64,000 bases of DNA from Natrialba magadii ATCC 43099. GTDB taxonomy: Archaea; Halobacteriota; Halobacteria; Halobacteriales; Natrialbaceae. Positions 20,163 through 25,031 of the stretch are shown in pieces. The notes below the pieces were generated by a model. That model was given only the letters and a program-made list of their open reading frames with translations. It made no database searches and was not told the DNA's origin. Each line of letters opens with the position of its first letter. Within the stretch, counting starts at the first letter, position 1. The translations under genes were made by a program, and so were the position numbers. Location of the stretch: positions 2,976,001 to 3,040,000 of the forward strand of contig NC_013922.1 of assembly GCF_000025625.1 (NCBI RefSeq). The letters run 5' to 3'.

Positions 20163-20927
20163 ATGCGCACCGACCGAACCGACCGGGACGATGTGGGGGT
20201 TTCCACGACCCGCAAAACGTTCGAAATCCTCGAAACGCTCGCGGACGAGGACGGCGTGACGATCACGGAACTCACCCGTCGAACGTCGTTCACCAAGAGC
20301 ACCGTCTACCGCCACCTCTCGACGCTCGTCGACCTCGGCTACGTCGTCGAGCGCGACGGCGCGTACTTCGTTGGTTTTCGGTTCCTCGAGATCAGCGAGC
20401 AGGCCCGCGGCCGCAAGAAGGGGTACACCGCGGCGAAACGGAAGGTGTTCGAACTCGGCAAGGAGACTGACGAGCGCGCCGTCTTCATCGTCGAGGAGGA
20501 CTACGAGGGGGTCTACATCCACCGATATGGAAGCCTCTCCGATACGATGATCGGCAAACGCCGCCCGCTGCACTCACTGGCCGCCGGAAAGACGATCCTC
20601 TCGGAGTGGGACGACGACGCCGTCGCCGAGTTCATCGACACCGTCGGGCTGGATCCCAGCACGGACAACACCATCACCGATCCCGACGAACTGTACGCCG
20701 AACTCGAGACGATTCGCGAGCGCGGTTACGCGGTGAACAACGAGGAGCACATGGCCGGCCTCCGTGGCGTTGCCGTCCCGGTCTATACACCGGACGAGAC
20801 GCTGCTCGGTGCACTGAGTGTGTTCGGGCCGACGAGTCGGTTCAAGGACGAGTACGTCCACGAGGAACTGCCAAATCGCCTCTGGGACAAGGCGGGCGAA
20901 ATCAAAGTGACGCTGGCGTACGGCTGA
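20163..20927 (+). CDS. IclR-family transcriptional regulator, 254 aa
   Basis: The N-terminal winged helix-turn-helix (about residues 15-75) includes TRKTFEILETLADEDGVTITELTRR and FTKSTVYRHLSTLVDLGYV (recognised in parts). The C-terminal IclR effector-binding domain (about 80-250) has RRPLHSLAAGKTILSEW, RERGYAVNNEEHMAGLRGVAVPV and LLGALSVFGPTSRF. Length is typical. IclR proteins usually control adjacent catabolic genes in response to a small organic ligand. Its position beside glutaryl-CoA dehydrogenase and the TRAP operon makes it the likely regulator of this block, although its operator cannot be identified from one sequence. Confidence 0.93.
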   Translation: MRTDRTDRDDVGVSTTRKTFEILETLADEDGVTITELTRRTSFTKSTVYRHLSTLVDLGYVVERDGAYFVGFRFLEISEQARGRKKGYTAAKRKVFELGKETDERAVFIVEEDYEGVYIHRYGSLSDTMIGKRRPLHSLAAGKTILSEWDDDAVAEFIDTVGLDPSTDNTITDPDELYAELETIRERGYAVNNEEHMAGLRGVAVPVYTPDETLLGALSVFGPTSRFKDEYVHEELPNRLWDKAGEIKVTLAYG

Positions 20928-21333
20928 GCTACAGGCGCTGGTCGCAGTATTCGGTTCTCGTTCTCGTTCTCGTTCTCGCTCTTGCTCTTGCTCTCTGTCT
21001 ATCCGTTGTATACACCTCATAGCCCGCCTGAACGAAAGGCACCAGCCAGTCCAATTTCGGCATACGAAACGAGCCCCAGCGAGTGTCGGACTGGGGACTA
21101 CCGCCTTGCTATGAAGGGACACTATCAGCCGTCGCTGTTTCACCAGTATCCCAGATGGTGGTAGCAAGTGTCCGCCATGCGGAACGAGCGTCTTATCGGA
21201 CGGGCGTGCCACCACCGAAACGACTTTCGGGGGCTGACCGAAAGTCGTCGCAAACGATGGATCACGAGAACGATCGGTGGGGTTGGAATCAACGCGAGAT
21301 ACAGCCATCGAAGCCGGGAGCTGCCAGCTCACC
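20928..21333. other. Intergenic region with short CT-rich hexamer repeat
   Basis: Contains a TCTCGT/TCTTGC hexamer run at about 20953-20999 (roughly seven units), downstream of the IclR gene. No gene is supported before the RdfA start at 21334; the upstream in-frame ATG at 21277 adds a segment without family similarity. An AC/GA-rich region follows with no clear structure. Confidence 0.6.
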
Positions 21334-21957
21334 ATGACCGACGAATCGTCGACGCCAGGTCCGAAGCCGAAAGTCGCCCGTCTCATCGACGCGTACGGGC
21401 CCGAACTCGCTGGAATCGGTGAGGAACTCGAGGCACGGTGGACGGACCCCGAGACCGACGACAGCCTGCGGACGCTCGCAGACTGGTTCAACGAGCAACT
21501 GCTACAGGCGGCGCTCGCCGACGCCGGCGTCGAGACGGTCACCGACGACGTCTCACAGCTCTACTCGCTGCTCGCAGGTGATACCGGGAGTCGCGGCGAA
21601 CGAACACAGATCGAGCGTCGACTCGAGCGCCAGGGCGTCGACGTGGCGTCACTCACCGACGAGTTCGTCTCCTACGGCGCGATCCGGTCGTATTTGACCG
21701 GCTACCGAAACGCGTCACCGCCGCCGGCCGACGGACGGGCGAACGCGGCGACGACGGCCCGAACGATCGATGGCCTTCGCCAGCGGACGGTCGCCGTTAC
21801 GGAAAGTAAACTCGACCGATTACAGGACACCGACCAGCTACGAGTGGGTCCACATCGAGTGTTCGCAGACGTGCAGGTACTCTGCGAGCGCTGTGGAAAG
21901 CAGTACGACGTGGCAGATCTGCTGGATGCGGGCTCGTGTGACTGTTATGAGTCCTGA
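21334..21957 (+). CDS. rdfA: RdfA-family protein (rod-determining factor-like), 207 aa
   Basis: I recognise the haloarchaeal RdfA family. Its features are an N-terminal KVARLIDAYG segment, RWTDPE...SLRTLADWFNEQLL (a probable HTH-like helical region, about residues 30-60), the GVDV...LTDEFVSYGAIRSYL block, and TIDGLRQRTVAVTESKLDRL. The protein ends in a small zinc-binding module with CERCG and a final CDC motif. In Haloferax volcanii, RdfA is needed for the rod cell shape; its biochemical activity is not well defined. The protein is soluble. The start at 21334 is the first ATG with family similarity. It lies 213 bp from, and convergent with, an archaeal SMC-like gene; family members commonly sit next to such genes. 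Confidence 0.8.
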   Translation: MTDESSTPGPKPKVARLIDAYGPELAGIGEELEARWTDPETDDSLRTLADWFNEQLLQAALADAGVETVTDDVSQLYSLLAGDTGSRGERTQIERRLERQGVDVASLTDEFVSYGAIRSYLTGYRNASPPPADGRANAATTARTIDGLRQRTVAVTESKLDRLQDTDQLRVGPHRVFADVQVLCERCGKQYDVADLLDAGSCDCYES

Positions 21958-22170
21958 GGACTGGCGCACGGACCGGCTGTCGGGCGTAGATGGTACGTGT
22001 TACGCGTTACGTGTCATGTGTTACGTGTCACGTGCCATGTGCCATATACCGTCGAATACCGACAGTCGCGCCGCTCTCGAGACGTAACTGCAAACAGCGG
22101 TCGAGCTAGTTCGGATACTGAACCCATAACACCGATACCGGTGTTACGAGATACGTCCAACGGGCCGTGA

Positions 22171-24153
22171 TTAAATCTCGGTCACGCGGTCGTACTCGTC
22201 GTCGATCGCCGCTGCGTCCTCGGGCAGCAAGGCAACGACGAGGAAGTCGGTGTGTGATTCGAAGTACTCTACAAGCGATGCGATTCGGTTCGAGTCAAGC
22301 GCTTCCAGCGAGTCGAGCAGCATGAACGGCACCTCCTCGTAGACTTCGTGGACGAGATAGCCCGCGAGTCCGAAGATCAGGCCCGTCACCTCCCGTTCAC
22401 TCTCGCTCAGGTGGTCGATTGTATCCTCGTAAGTCCGCCCATCTGCCGTGCTGCGGACGATGTGCAGATCGAACGCCGTCTGTTCGACCTTCCGGCGACC
22501 TTCCCGAACCGTCTTCCCAACCCGCTCGATCCAGATCCGGTCGATATTGTCGTACTCGAGTACCTCGAGCACGGCGTCCATGTGCTCGTTGAACGACTCG
22601 ACGGCCTCGCGTTCGATTCGGTCGATACGAGTGCGCAGTTCCTCGAGTTCGTCGCGAATTTCCTCACGGCGCGCTTCGAGACGCGCCTGTTCGTCGAGGT
22701 CGGATTCGATCTCCTCGATGCGTTCGGTCGTCGTCTCGAGGTCGCGCTCGAGCCGTCCGAGGGAGAACTCGAGTTCGTTTGCGCGGCGGTTGAGGTCGAG
22801 GAGACTCTCCTCATCGTCCTCGCTCTCGTCGTCGGATTCAGCCTCGAGTTCCGCGGCTTCGGTTTCGAGGGCGTCAATTTCGGCTTCGAGTTCCTCGCGG
22901 CGGTCGGTGAGGTCGTCGAGACGGGCCTCGCGCTGGTCGATCTCGTCGCTGACGGACTCGAGACGGCGGTCGACGCGTTCGTGGCGCTGGCGTGTCTGGT
23001 TAATCTCACGGCGCTCAGTACGAAGCGATTCGATCCGGTCTTCGAGGTCGTCGCGCTCTGCGAGTTTCGTCTCCTGGTGGTCGCGCAGGCGCTCGATCGT
23101 GCCCTCGATTTCGTCGCGCTCGACCTGTGTTCCGCAGGTCCAACAGCGGACGGTTTCCTGGTCCTCGACGAGCTGGTCGGTGAGCGATTCGGCGTCCGAC
23201 TCGTGTTCGACGCCGTCGGCCAGCAACTGCCGAATTTCGGGGTGCGATCCCTCGAGCATCTCCTCGTTGAACTGGACGATGCTCTGTAGCTGACTGATGA
23301 CGCCGTCGATCGACTGCGACTGGCGCTGGAGGCGGTCGATTTCGTCGTCGACCTCCTCGCGGTCGAGTGAGTCGAGATCGGGGAGATCTGCGCGTTCGTC
23401 CTCGAGTTCCTCGCGCTCTCCGCGCAGTGCGGAGAGACTCTCCCGTTCAGTTTCGAGATCGAAGCGGACGTCCTCGAGTGCAGACCGTCGCTCACGGAGT
23501 TCGCTCAGTTTTGCCTCGAGTTCGTCCTGGCCCTCCTGCTGGGCGTCGGCGCTAGCTTCGGCCTCCTCGATCGCCTCTTTGACGACCTCGAGTTCCTCGC
23601 GCTTGTCCTCGATTTTGTTCTGAAGGTCGGTACGCTCCTGTTCGAGCCCCGGGAGCTCGTTCTTGAGCGACTCGAGTCGATCGAGTTCGCTCGAAAGTTC
23701 GTTCTTCTCGTCGGTCAGCCGCGAGATTTCCCGTTCGATTTCGTCGGTGTCGACCGGCCGAAGGATGATCTCGCGCAGGTCGTCCTCCATCGTGACGGCG
23801 CGGCGCGCCGGGTTGGACTCGAGAAGGAACGCGTAGAGGTCGGCGAGTTTCGGATCGTCGAGATACGGGTCGCCGTCGGTGACGACAGAGTTCCCCGTGC
23901 GTGTAAGCGTCCGAGTGTACGTTTCGCCGTCGAGTTCGAGTTCGGCATACCCCTCCTCGGCGTCGGCCTTGAGTGAGGCAGATTCGCCACCAAGTGCGGC
24001 CATAAACGCCTGGAGAAGCGATGTTCGGTTCGTCGCGTTGCGCCCGGCGAGGACGGTTATACCCGACTCGAGTTCGACTGTCGTCTCATCGATCCCACCA
24101 ATGTTCTGCGCCCGTAATCGCGCCTCGTGGGCAATCGACTCCTGTGTAGCCAT
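22171..24153 (-). CDS. Archaea-specific SMC-related protein (Sph/ASRP type), 660 aa
   Basis: An SMC/Rad50-like ATPase. The N-terminal half-domain has an unusual Walker A, LAGRNATNRTSLLQAF (about residues 35-50), with an Asn-Arg pair where Gly-Lys is expected; this is typical of haloarchaeal ASRPs. A long coiled coil (about 150-540) is interrupted by a CxxC zinc hook, RCWTCGTQV (about residue 340). The C-terminal half-domain has an ABC-signature-like LSESEREVTGLIFGLAGYL and a Walker B, PFMLLDSLEALDS. Haloarchaeal Sph proteins are implicated in chromosome organisation or repair. Convergent partner of the RdfA gene. ATGs at 24156 and 24153 are equivalent starts. Confidence 0.9.
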   Translation of the reverse strand: MATQESIAHEARLRAQNIGGIDETTVELESGITVLAGRNATNRTSLLQAFMAALGGESASLKADAEEGYAELELDGETYTRTLTRTGNSVVTDGDPYLDDPKLADLYAFLLESNPARRAVTMEDDLREIILRPVDTDEIEREISRLTDEKNELSSELDRLESLKNELPGLEQERTDLQNKIEDKREELEVVKEAIEEAEASADAQQEGQDELEAKLSELRERRSALEDVRFDLETERESLSALRGEREELEDERADLPDLDSLDREEVDDEIDRLQRQSQSIDGVISQLQSIVQFNEEMLEGSHPEIRQLLADGVEHESDAESLTDQLVEDQETVRCWTCGTQVERDEIEGTIERLRDHQETKLAERDDLEDRIESLRTERREINQTRQRHERVDRRLESVSDEIDQREARLDDLTDRREELEAEIDALETEAAELEAESDDESEDDEESLLDLNRRANELEFSLGRLERDLETTTERIEEIESDLDEQARLEARREEIRDELEELRTRIDRIEREAVESFNEHMDAVLEVLEYDNIDRIWIERVGKTVREGRRKVEQTAFDLHIVRSTADGRTYEDTIDHLSESEREVTGLIFGLAGYLVHEVYEEVPFMLLDSLEALDSNRIASLVEYFESHTDFLVVALLPEDAAAIDDEYDRVTEI

Positions 24154-24575
24154 CATTCGAATAACTTCCTAGCCGAGTGATAAACCTTTGGAGGGGAACG
24201 ATAAGTGTGGGTGGGGACTCGACCGAGGAACCGCCGAGTTACCGCGAACACATATAGAAGTGTTATAGAGATTAGTTATATTTCTTTCTTATGTATAAGG
24301 TGCTATTCTCGAACGATGGTATGCATACAGTATGGCTACCTCCATAGTAGTCGGTATATACCGTATAACCTGCATATCTCTGTCTGCAGGAAACGCGTGG
24401 GACAAAACTGAGACTGTGGTGAATTAATCAGGATACAAACACATATCAGTAAATATCGATGGAAAATACAATTGGGTACGTAGTATTAAATTCTGGCCTA
24501 CACTTCTATGCCACCTGTTATCTCTTGATCCATTCCATCTGGTGGTTTATATACAATAACGCAACCAGCGAAGCT
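24154..24575. other. AT-rich intergenic region with palindromes
   Basis: About 420 bp, clearly AT-richer than the rest of the window. It contains the perfect palindromes GTATGCATAC (24319-24328) and CGGTATATACCG (24352-24363), several TATA-like words, and the leaderless promoter of the DUF3006 gene at its right end. The upstream in-frame ATG at 24459 gives a hydrophobic extension of uncertain reality. No other gene is seen. Confidence 0.6.
24546..24554 (+). promoter_or_regulatory. TATA box for DUF3006 gene
   Basis: TTTATATAC is centred 26 bp upstream of the ATG at 24576. This is the spacing expected for a leaderless haloarchaeal transcript, and it supports the 24576 start over the upstream ATG. 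Confidence 0.75.
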
Positions 24576-25031
24576 ATGGCCTCACAGAAGACGCCATCGC
24601 GACGCACTGCACTCCGAACGCTGACCACCCTCGCAACTGGCCTGACACTCGGCGGTCCGAGTGTCGCTGGGTCCGTGGGTGCACAAACCGACGCAGACTC
24701 CGATGGACCTGCCGATACCGAACGGTACGTCGCCGTCGTCGACCGGATCGTCGACGGCGAACACGTCGTCTTGCTACTCGAGGAGGACGGCCAGATCGTG
24801 GACGAGTTGGTCGTTCCACGGTCAGAGTTCGATACCGTCTCCGAGAGTGATATTCTGGCCGTGATCATCGCGGACGACGAACTGCTCGACTACCGAATCC
24901 TGCCGGAGCGACCCTGTGATATCGACGCTGTGGACATCGCTGCCGACAGCCAGGACGACCTGGATGCCGACCGTGAGACGACGCCAGCACCATCCCGTCA
25001 GAGTCGTGCTGAAGAAGCCGACTGTCTCTAG
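24576..25031 (+). CDS. Exported DUF3006-domain protein, 151 aa
   Basis: The N-terminus has a Tat-like signal: an RR pair in PSRRTALRTLTTLATG, a hydrophobic stretch and an AQ-type cleavage region near VGAQTDAD. A DUF3006 domain follows (about residues 48-100), YVAVVDRIVDGEHVVLLLEEDG ... VVPRSEF, an SH3-like beta barrel found in exported or lipoprotein contexts in Bacillota and archaea. The tail is acidic and Ser/Arg-rich. The function of DUF3006 is unknown; it often sits near metallo-beta-lactamase nucleases or is fused to them, but none is present here. The TATA box 26 bp upstream sets the start. Confidence 0.78.
   Translation: MASQKTPSRRTALRTLTTLATGLTLGGPSVAGSVGAQTDADSDGPADTERYVAVVDRIVDGEHVVLLLEEDGQIVDELVVPRSEFDTVSESDILAVIIADDELLDYRILPERPCDIDAVDIAADSQDDLDADRETTPAPSRQSRAEEADCL

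Follow-up and report, generated by a model that had tools for sequence, protein, structure and literature searches.

Why haloarchaea need an SMC-like protein for rod formation is the question raised by a pair of neighboring genes in the 64,000-bp window analyzed here (positions 2976001-3040000 of a 3.75-Mb contig in a haloarchaeal genome of 4.44 Mb). The pair consists of an RdfA-family gene (21334..21957, plus strand, 207 aa) and a Sph-type SMC-like gene of the ASRP (archaea-specific SMC-related protein) family (22171..24156, minus strand, 661 aa), which are directly adjacent and convergently transcribed, with 213 bp between their stop codons (21958..22170). Because the genes are convergent at this locus, each of them needs its own promoter. 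The earlier note had described the facing genes and the gap, the zinc end of RdfA, and the NATNRTS Walker A and CWTC hook of its neighbor, all of which agree with the coordinates, strands and protein sequences reported below; it had further suggested that the two proteins may belong to one conserved module, putatively tying chromosome or envelope organization to cell shape. A simple scan of the intergenic region found no terminator-like hairpin. Degenerate 7/14/21-bp repeats (TACGTGTCACGCGT-like) are located inside it at 21994-22045.

The RdfA protein matches PF21811 along nearly the whole profile (positions 1-194 of 195; E 5.6e-69, 232 bits against a gathering cut-off of 27). It is composed of a helical N-terminal domain (residues 13-125), a long helix (134-165) and a C-terminal zinc knuckle (184-204) with the ligands C184-x-x-C187 and C202-x-C204. 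The four cysteines are invariant over 72 relatives, as are K13, V14, W36, R46, L48, N53, L80, V112 and L121. The AlphaFold model (pLDDT 91.5) contains the same three parts; Foldseek gave no PDB match to it at E <= 0.001, and a PDB sequence search gave no convincing match. A resemblance to P450 was rejected, since these hits are mere look-alikes of the helical core with Z about 5. No RdfA relatives were found in the viral contigs searched. The profile search of the source genome contigs identified two RdfA genes and a single ASRP gene. The second RdfA gene (C1:813388-813966) is surrounded by unrelated genes with no adjoining ASRP, and its product has an N-terminal CxCKVGR stretch that could supply extra zinc ligands. 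Interrupted RdfA genes with internal stops were observed in Halomarina oriensis and Natrinema gelatinilyticum, the latter having a second, intact RdfA gene on the other side of its ASRP.

The SMC-like protein is covered completely by the ASRP family model NF045487 (positions 1-593 of 593; E 1.3e-203, score 678 bits with the cut-off at 300). Its N-terminal head is followed by an outgoing coiled coil (138-301), the CWTC zinc hook (338-341), a returning coil (347-533) and the C-terminal head. It thus shares the family model, the zinc hook and the 660-aa head-coil-hook-coil-head layout with the other ASRPs (Sph, coalescin/ClsN), whose family and hook were defined by Yoshinaga et al. 2022 (PMC9389158). 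The AlphaFold model (pLDDT 84.2) comprises a Rad50-like head and a folded antiparallel coiled coil with the hook, and its best solved match is Rad50 (7zr1, Foldseek E 1.2e-16).

The pairing of RdfA with SMC-like proteins and its link to cell shape were already published in 2024, thus the core observation is not new. Schiller et al., who named RdfA, found that deletion of either rdfA or sph3 in Haloferax leaves only disks and abolishes motility with no growth defect, and that 42 of 54 RdfA genes and 42 of 50 SMC-like genes are directly adjacent in 24 genomes (PMC10869688). The H. volcanii pair rdfA-sph3 (HVO_2174-HVO_2175) resembles the window pair in both protein families and in direct adjacency. 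Both Haloferax genes are needed for rods (PMC10869688). The window pair differs in being convergent and in having an IclR gene upstream. The shape link proposed in the earlier note therefore stands for the Haloferax orthologs, and the evidence for it comes from them and not from the window copy. The window locus adds a member to this published pairing; what we further add is the order in which catalytic residues were lost, a methanogen cassette with intact residues and a recurrent IclR neighbor, for which no report was found in the literature searched, a body that mostly leaves out subscription journals.

Co-occurrence of the two families was assessed in 145 haloarchaeal genomes from 58 genera. 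RdfA is present in 125 genomes and ASRP in 123; both are found in 123 genomes, neither in 20, RdfA alone in two (G071 and G110, both with divergent RdfAs) and ASRP alone in none, in support of the single conserved module that had been suggested. Within six genera of mixed status, RdfA and ASRP vary jointly. Two divergent tandem RdfA genes are located on contig 26 of G071, a genome without an ASRP over the cut-off.

Adjacency was then counted by reading the flanking DNA of 149 haloarchaeal ASRP genes, which are the best-scoring matches, so that weak ASRPs are under-sampled. Among the matches listed, at least 123 of 149 ASRP genes directly adjoin an RdfA gene, none has RdfA nearby but separated, and 26 have no RdfA beside them; the count of 123 is a lower bound, since for six of the 26 the flanks read span only ~1.5 kb and a few others are found at the ends of contigs. 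The earlier statement that family members commonly sit together thus holds for this larger set as well as for the published one. Weak haloarchaeal ASRPs that were read separately, including a divergent clade, are also paired with RdfA. All four layouts occur among the matches listed: tandem with RdfA first (69), tandem with ASRP first (26), convergent (18) and divergent (10), so that the arrangement seen in the window is a minority layout (18/149). A FastTree phylogeny of the 176 ASRPs with a partner requires that the layout changed no fewer than 21 times while the genes stayed adjacent. These observations indicate that adjacency is conserved and operon order is not: the two genes have stayed neighbors through inheritance whatever their orientation, and they were gained or lost jointly.

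Phylogenies of the two families are in line with this history. RdfA and ASRP distances correlate with r 0.83 over 176 pairs, a value that partly reflects species history. Swapping of partners within multi-pair genomes showed that the adjoining RdfA fits the relatedness of an ASRP better than another RdfA from that genome does in 28 of 29 comparisons, which are not fully independent. Thus, RdfA and ASRP were co-inherited without partner swapping. Linkage alone could yield matching phylogenies and joint loss, and co-inheritance is therefore no proof of contact.

We consider it likely, with a probability of about 0.7, that RdfA and the Sph-type protein are cognate halves of one module, and that the Sph head is predicted not to hydrolyze ATP in haloarchaea. 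The two proteins would act together, probably as a complex, in a module required for rod shape and motility in Haloferax: Sph, with its zinc-hooked coiled coil, would provide a filament-like or scaffold-like element, and RdfA, a small zinc protein, may be the dedicated partner or adaptor of Sph. The 26 of 149 ASRPs (among the matches listed) and the second RdfA of the host that have no adjacent partner count against a single module.

A somewhat unlikely alternative is that the two proteins serve a shared pathway without contact, adjacency favoring co-inheritance and co-transfer, since many copies reside on plasmids or small replicons. The occurrence of all four layouts suits this alternative insofar as co-transcription is not the conserved feature, and the sporadic presence in methanogens (6 of 112 genomes, see below) fits transfer as a unit. 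In addition, residue-level coevolution of RdfA and ASRP is not clearly above a neighbor-swap null, as the top inter-protein couplings by mutual information (176 pairs) fall within the null range and the mean is only slightly above it. However, ASRPs without an adjoining RdfA are still confined to RdfA-bearing genomes, with no ASRP-only genome among 145, and linkage by itself does not explain this restriction.

DNA repair or gene conversion has also to be considered as the primary role, with Sph as a Rad50-like tether and the change of shape as a downstream effect. All four H. volcanii Sph proteins are needed for gene conversion, their deletions cut intermolecular conversion, and sph2 and sph4 are not deletable together (PMC11276520). 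The closest fold is that of Rad50, and the zinc hook CxxC is kept in all 149 haloarchaeal ASRPs among the matches listed. Against this possibility, which we regard as unlikely, the rdfA and sph3 deletions cause a specific defect of shape and motility while growth is normal (PMC10869688), the head motifs are unlike those of Rad50, and no Mre11-type partner is included in the pair. Deletions of sph2 and sph3 have opposite effects on shape (PMC11276520). A role in shape has also been proposed for another SMC-like protein, the crenarchaeal cytoskeletal Arcadin-4 (PMC10869688); it belongs to a different family, and the window ASRP matches the model Rkd4 only weakly (19.6 bits, cut-off 860).

The reading of the two proteins as one module includes the state of the Sph head, where three motifs depart from the canonical ABC pattern. 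In the window protein the Walker A motif reads GRNATNRTS (residues 38-46; 24019..24045, minus strand) with Arg at the P-loop Lys position of GxxGxGK[ST], the Walker B region reads LLDSLEALD instead of containing DE, with Ser at the catalytic Glu position (LDSLEALD, residues 614-621; 22294..22317, minus strand), and LSESE stands in place of the LSGG signature. The host Rad50 (GVNGSGKST) and SMC (GPNGSGKSN) both keep GxNGSGKS, and the N-terminal head of Rad50 aligns GVNGSGKST with GRNATNRTS. The host Rad50, with which the ASRP shares the zinc-hook coiled-coil ABC head, further has canonical Walker A and B motifs, LSGGE and a switch His, all of which the window ASRP lacks; equivalence at Walker B is based on the family alignment and a side-by-side reading of the motifs.

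These variants are characteristic of the main haloarchaeal clade. Among the matches listed, its Walker A motif is GxNATNRTS with Arg at the P-loop position in 143 of 149 proteins and Lys in the remaining six, and the catalytic Glu is found in none of 149, D-S or D-A being present instead. The signature of the main clade is LS[ED]SE; as LSxSE is common to most sampled ASRPs, this variant is not part of the clade-specific loss. By rooting a tree of 54 proteins on distant ASRPs we placed the losses in order. GK[ST] is retained both by the distant ASRPs and by the methanogen relatives; the latter also have DE at the catalytic position, where the distant ASRPs are mixed. The divergent haloarchaeal clade retains GKSS and has Glu replaced by G or R. 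In the main clade, including the window protein, Glu is lost and the P-loop Lys mostly so. The tree thus reads as loss of Glu first and of Lys afterwards, which suggests a stepwise decay, and we infer from these residues that ATP hydrolysis by the main-clade Sph is reduced or absent. Hence the haloarchaeal Sph clade differs from the sampled non-haloarchaeal relatives, which keep GK[ST]. The earlier designation of the window protein simply as an ATPase is doubtful, as active-site residues are consistently replaced. Loss of ASRP catalytic residues is not discussed in the accessible text of PMC9389158.

It could be argued that the main-clade Sph is still an ATPase with an unconventional site, in which the P-loop Arg and another acid (the invariant E618) as catalytic base would take over. 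The variant residues are near-invariant (GxNATNRTS, LSESE, LDSLEAID), and the site is thus under selection. Since Glu was lost before Lys on the tree, as in a stepwise decay, and no switch His is evident, we find this quite improbable. ATP binding can persist in ABC sites that have degenerated, and the P-loop Lys is still present in six main-clade proteins, so that absence of hydrolysis is a prediction from sequence. Near-invariance of the altered residues points to a role that was kept but changed. The remaining explanation, a chance neighborhood of RdfA and ASRP, is refuted by the adjacency counts, both among the matches listed and in the published genomes (PMC10869688).

Under the preferred reading of RdfA and Sph as cognate halves of one module, the changes of catalytic Glu to Ser and of P-loop Lys to Arg would have removed the normal ATP hydrolysis cycle in haloarchaea, and a head without this cycle would act not as a loop-extruding motor but as a clamp, either static or gated by a ligand. 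More tentatively, and at somewhat less than even odds when both parts are taken together, the haloarchaeal Sph may be a pseudo-ATPase whose hydrolysis was lost in two steps and which, together with RdfA, became a cytoskeleton-like shape scaffold, and the RdfA-ASRP pair may be older than haloarchaea or have been exchanged with methanogens. If true, an SMC-type machine would have lost its motor activity and become a structural shape factor. The proposal predicts that haloarchaeal Sph binds ATP weakly or fails to hydrolyze it, unlike its methanogen relatives.

Outside haloarchaea, some further members of the phylum have matches to PF21811 that exceed its cut-off. In a sample of 112 methanogen genomes, putatively Methanosarcinaceae, ASRP was found in six (E <= 1e-35) and RdfA in five, all of which are within those six; if the families were independent, the chance of this overlap would be ~4e-8. 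The RdfA relative of the sixth genome was detected only with a methanogen profile. All six related ASRPs have the same gene order, ASRP, RdfA relative and winged-helix protein (HTH_45 in some), and keep both the P-loop Lys and the catalytic Glu. Support is uneven across the cassettes, the RdfA relative of G293 falling short of the Pfam threshold. G164 has a second ASRP in a different context that lacks RdfA, and two genomes of another family (G319 and G327) have an RdfA relative and no ASRP over the cut-off. By its residues, the methanogen-type ASRP, a putative ancestor of haloarchaeal Sph, looks ATPase-competent, and the ancestral form may persist in these few methanogens within the ASRP-RdfA-winged-helix cassette. 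The cassette offers a system outside haloarchaea for studying RdfA.

The third addition concerns the regulatory context of the pair. An IclR-family transcription regulator (20163..20927, plus strand; IclR_C E 1.2e-33) is located upstream of rdfA in the window, and 59 of 165 RdfA-ASRP pairs, the window pair included, have an IclR gene no more than 700 bp away. After merging relatives under 35% divergence and removing overlapping ORFs, 29 of 65 ASRP clusters have such a neighbor. A sample of 39 haloarchaeal genomes contains 181 IclR genes (~4.6 each), for which uniform placement predicts ~0.7%; the excess may be partly due to uneven gene placement. In the IclR tree the pair-linked members are scattered (20 label changes versus ~30 when shuffled), which suggests repeated recruitment of different IclRs. 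The window IclR is a candidate regulator of rdfA, and the recurrence of IclR genes beside such pairs hints that nutrient sensing may feed into cell shape. Directly past the IclR gene, a pyrimidine-rich hexamer repeat (GTTCTC/TCTTGC) occupies 20954-20995. On the other side of the pair, the gene beside ASRP (24459-25031) encodes a protein that matches DUF3006 weakly and begins with a twin-arginine-like sequence (RRTALRTLTTLATGLTLGG).
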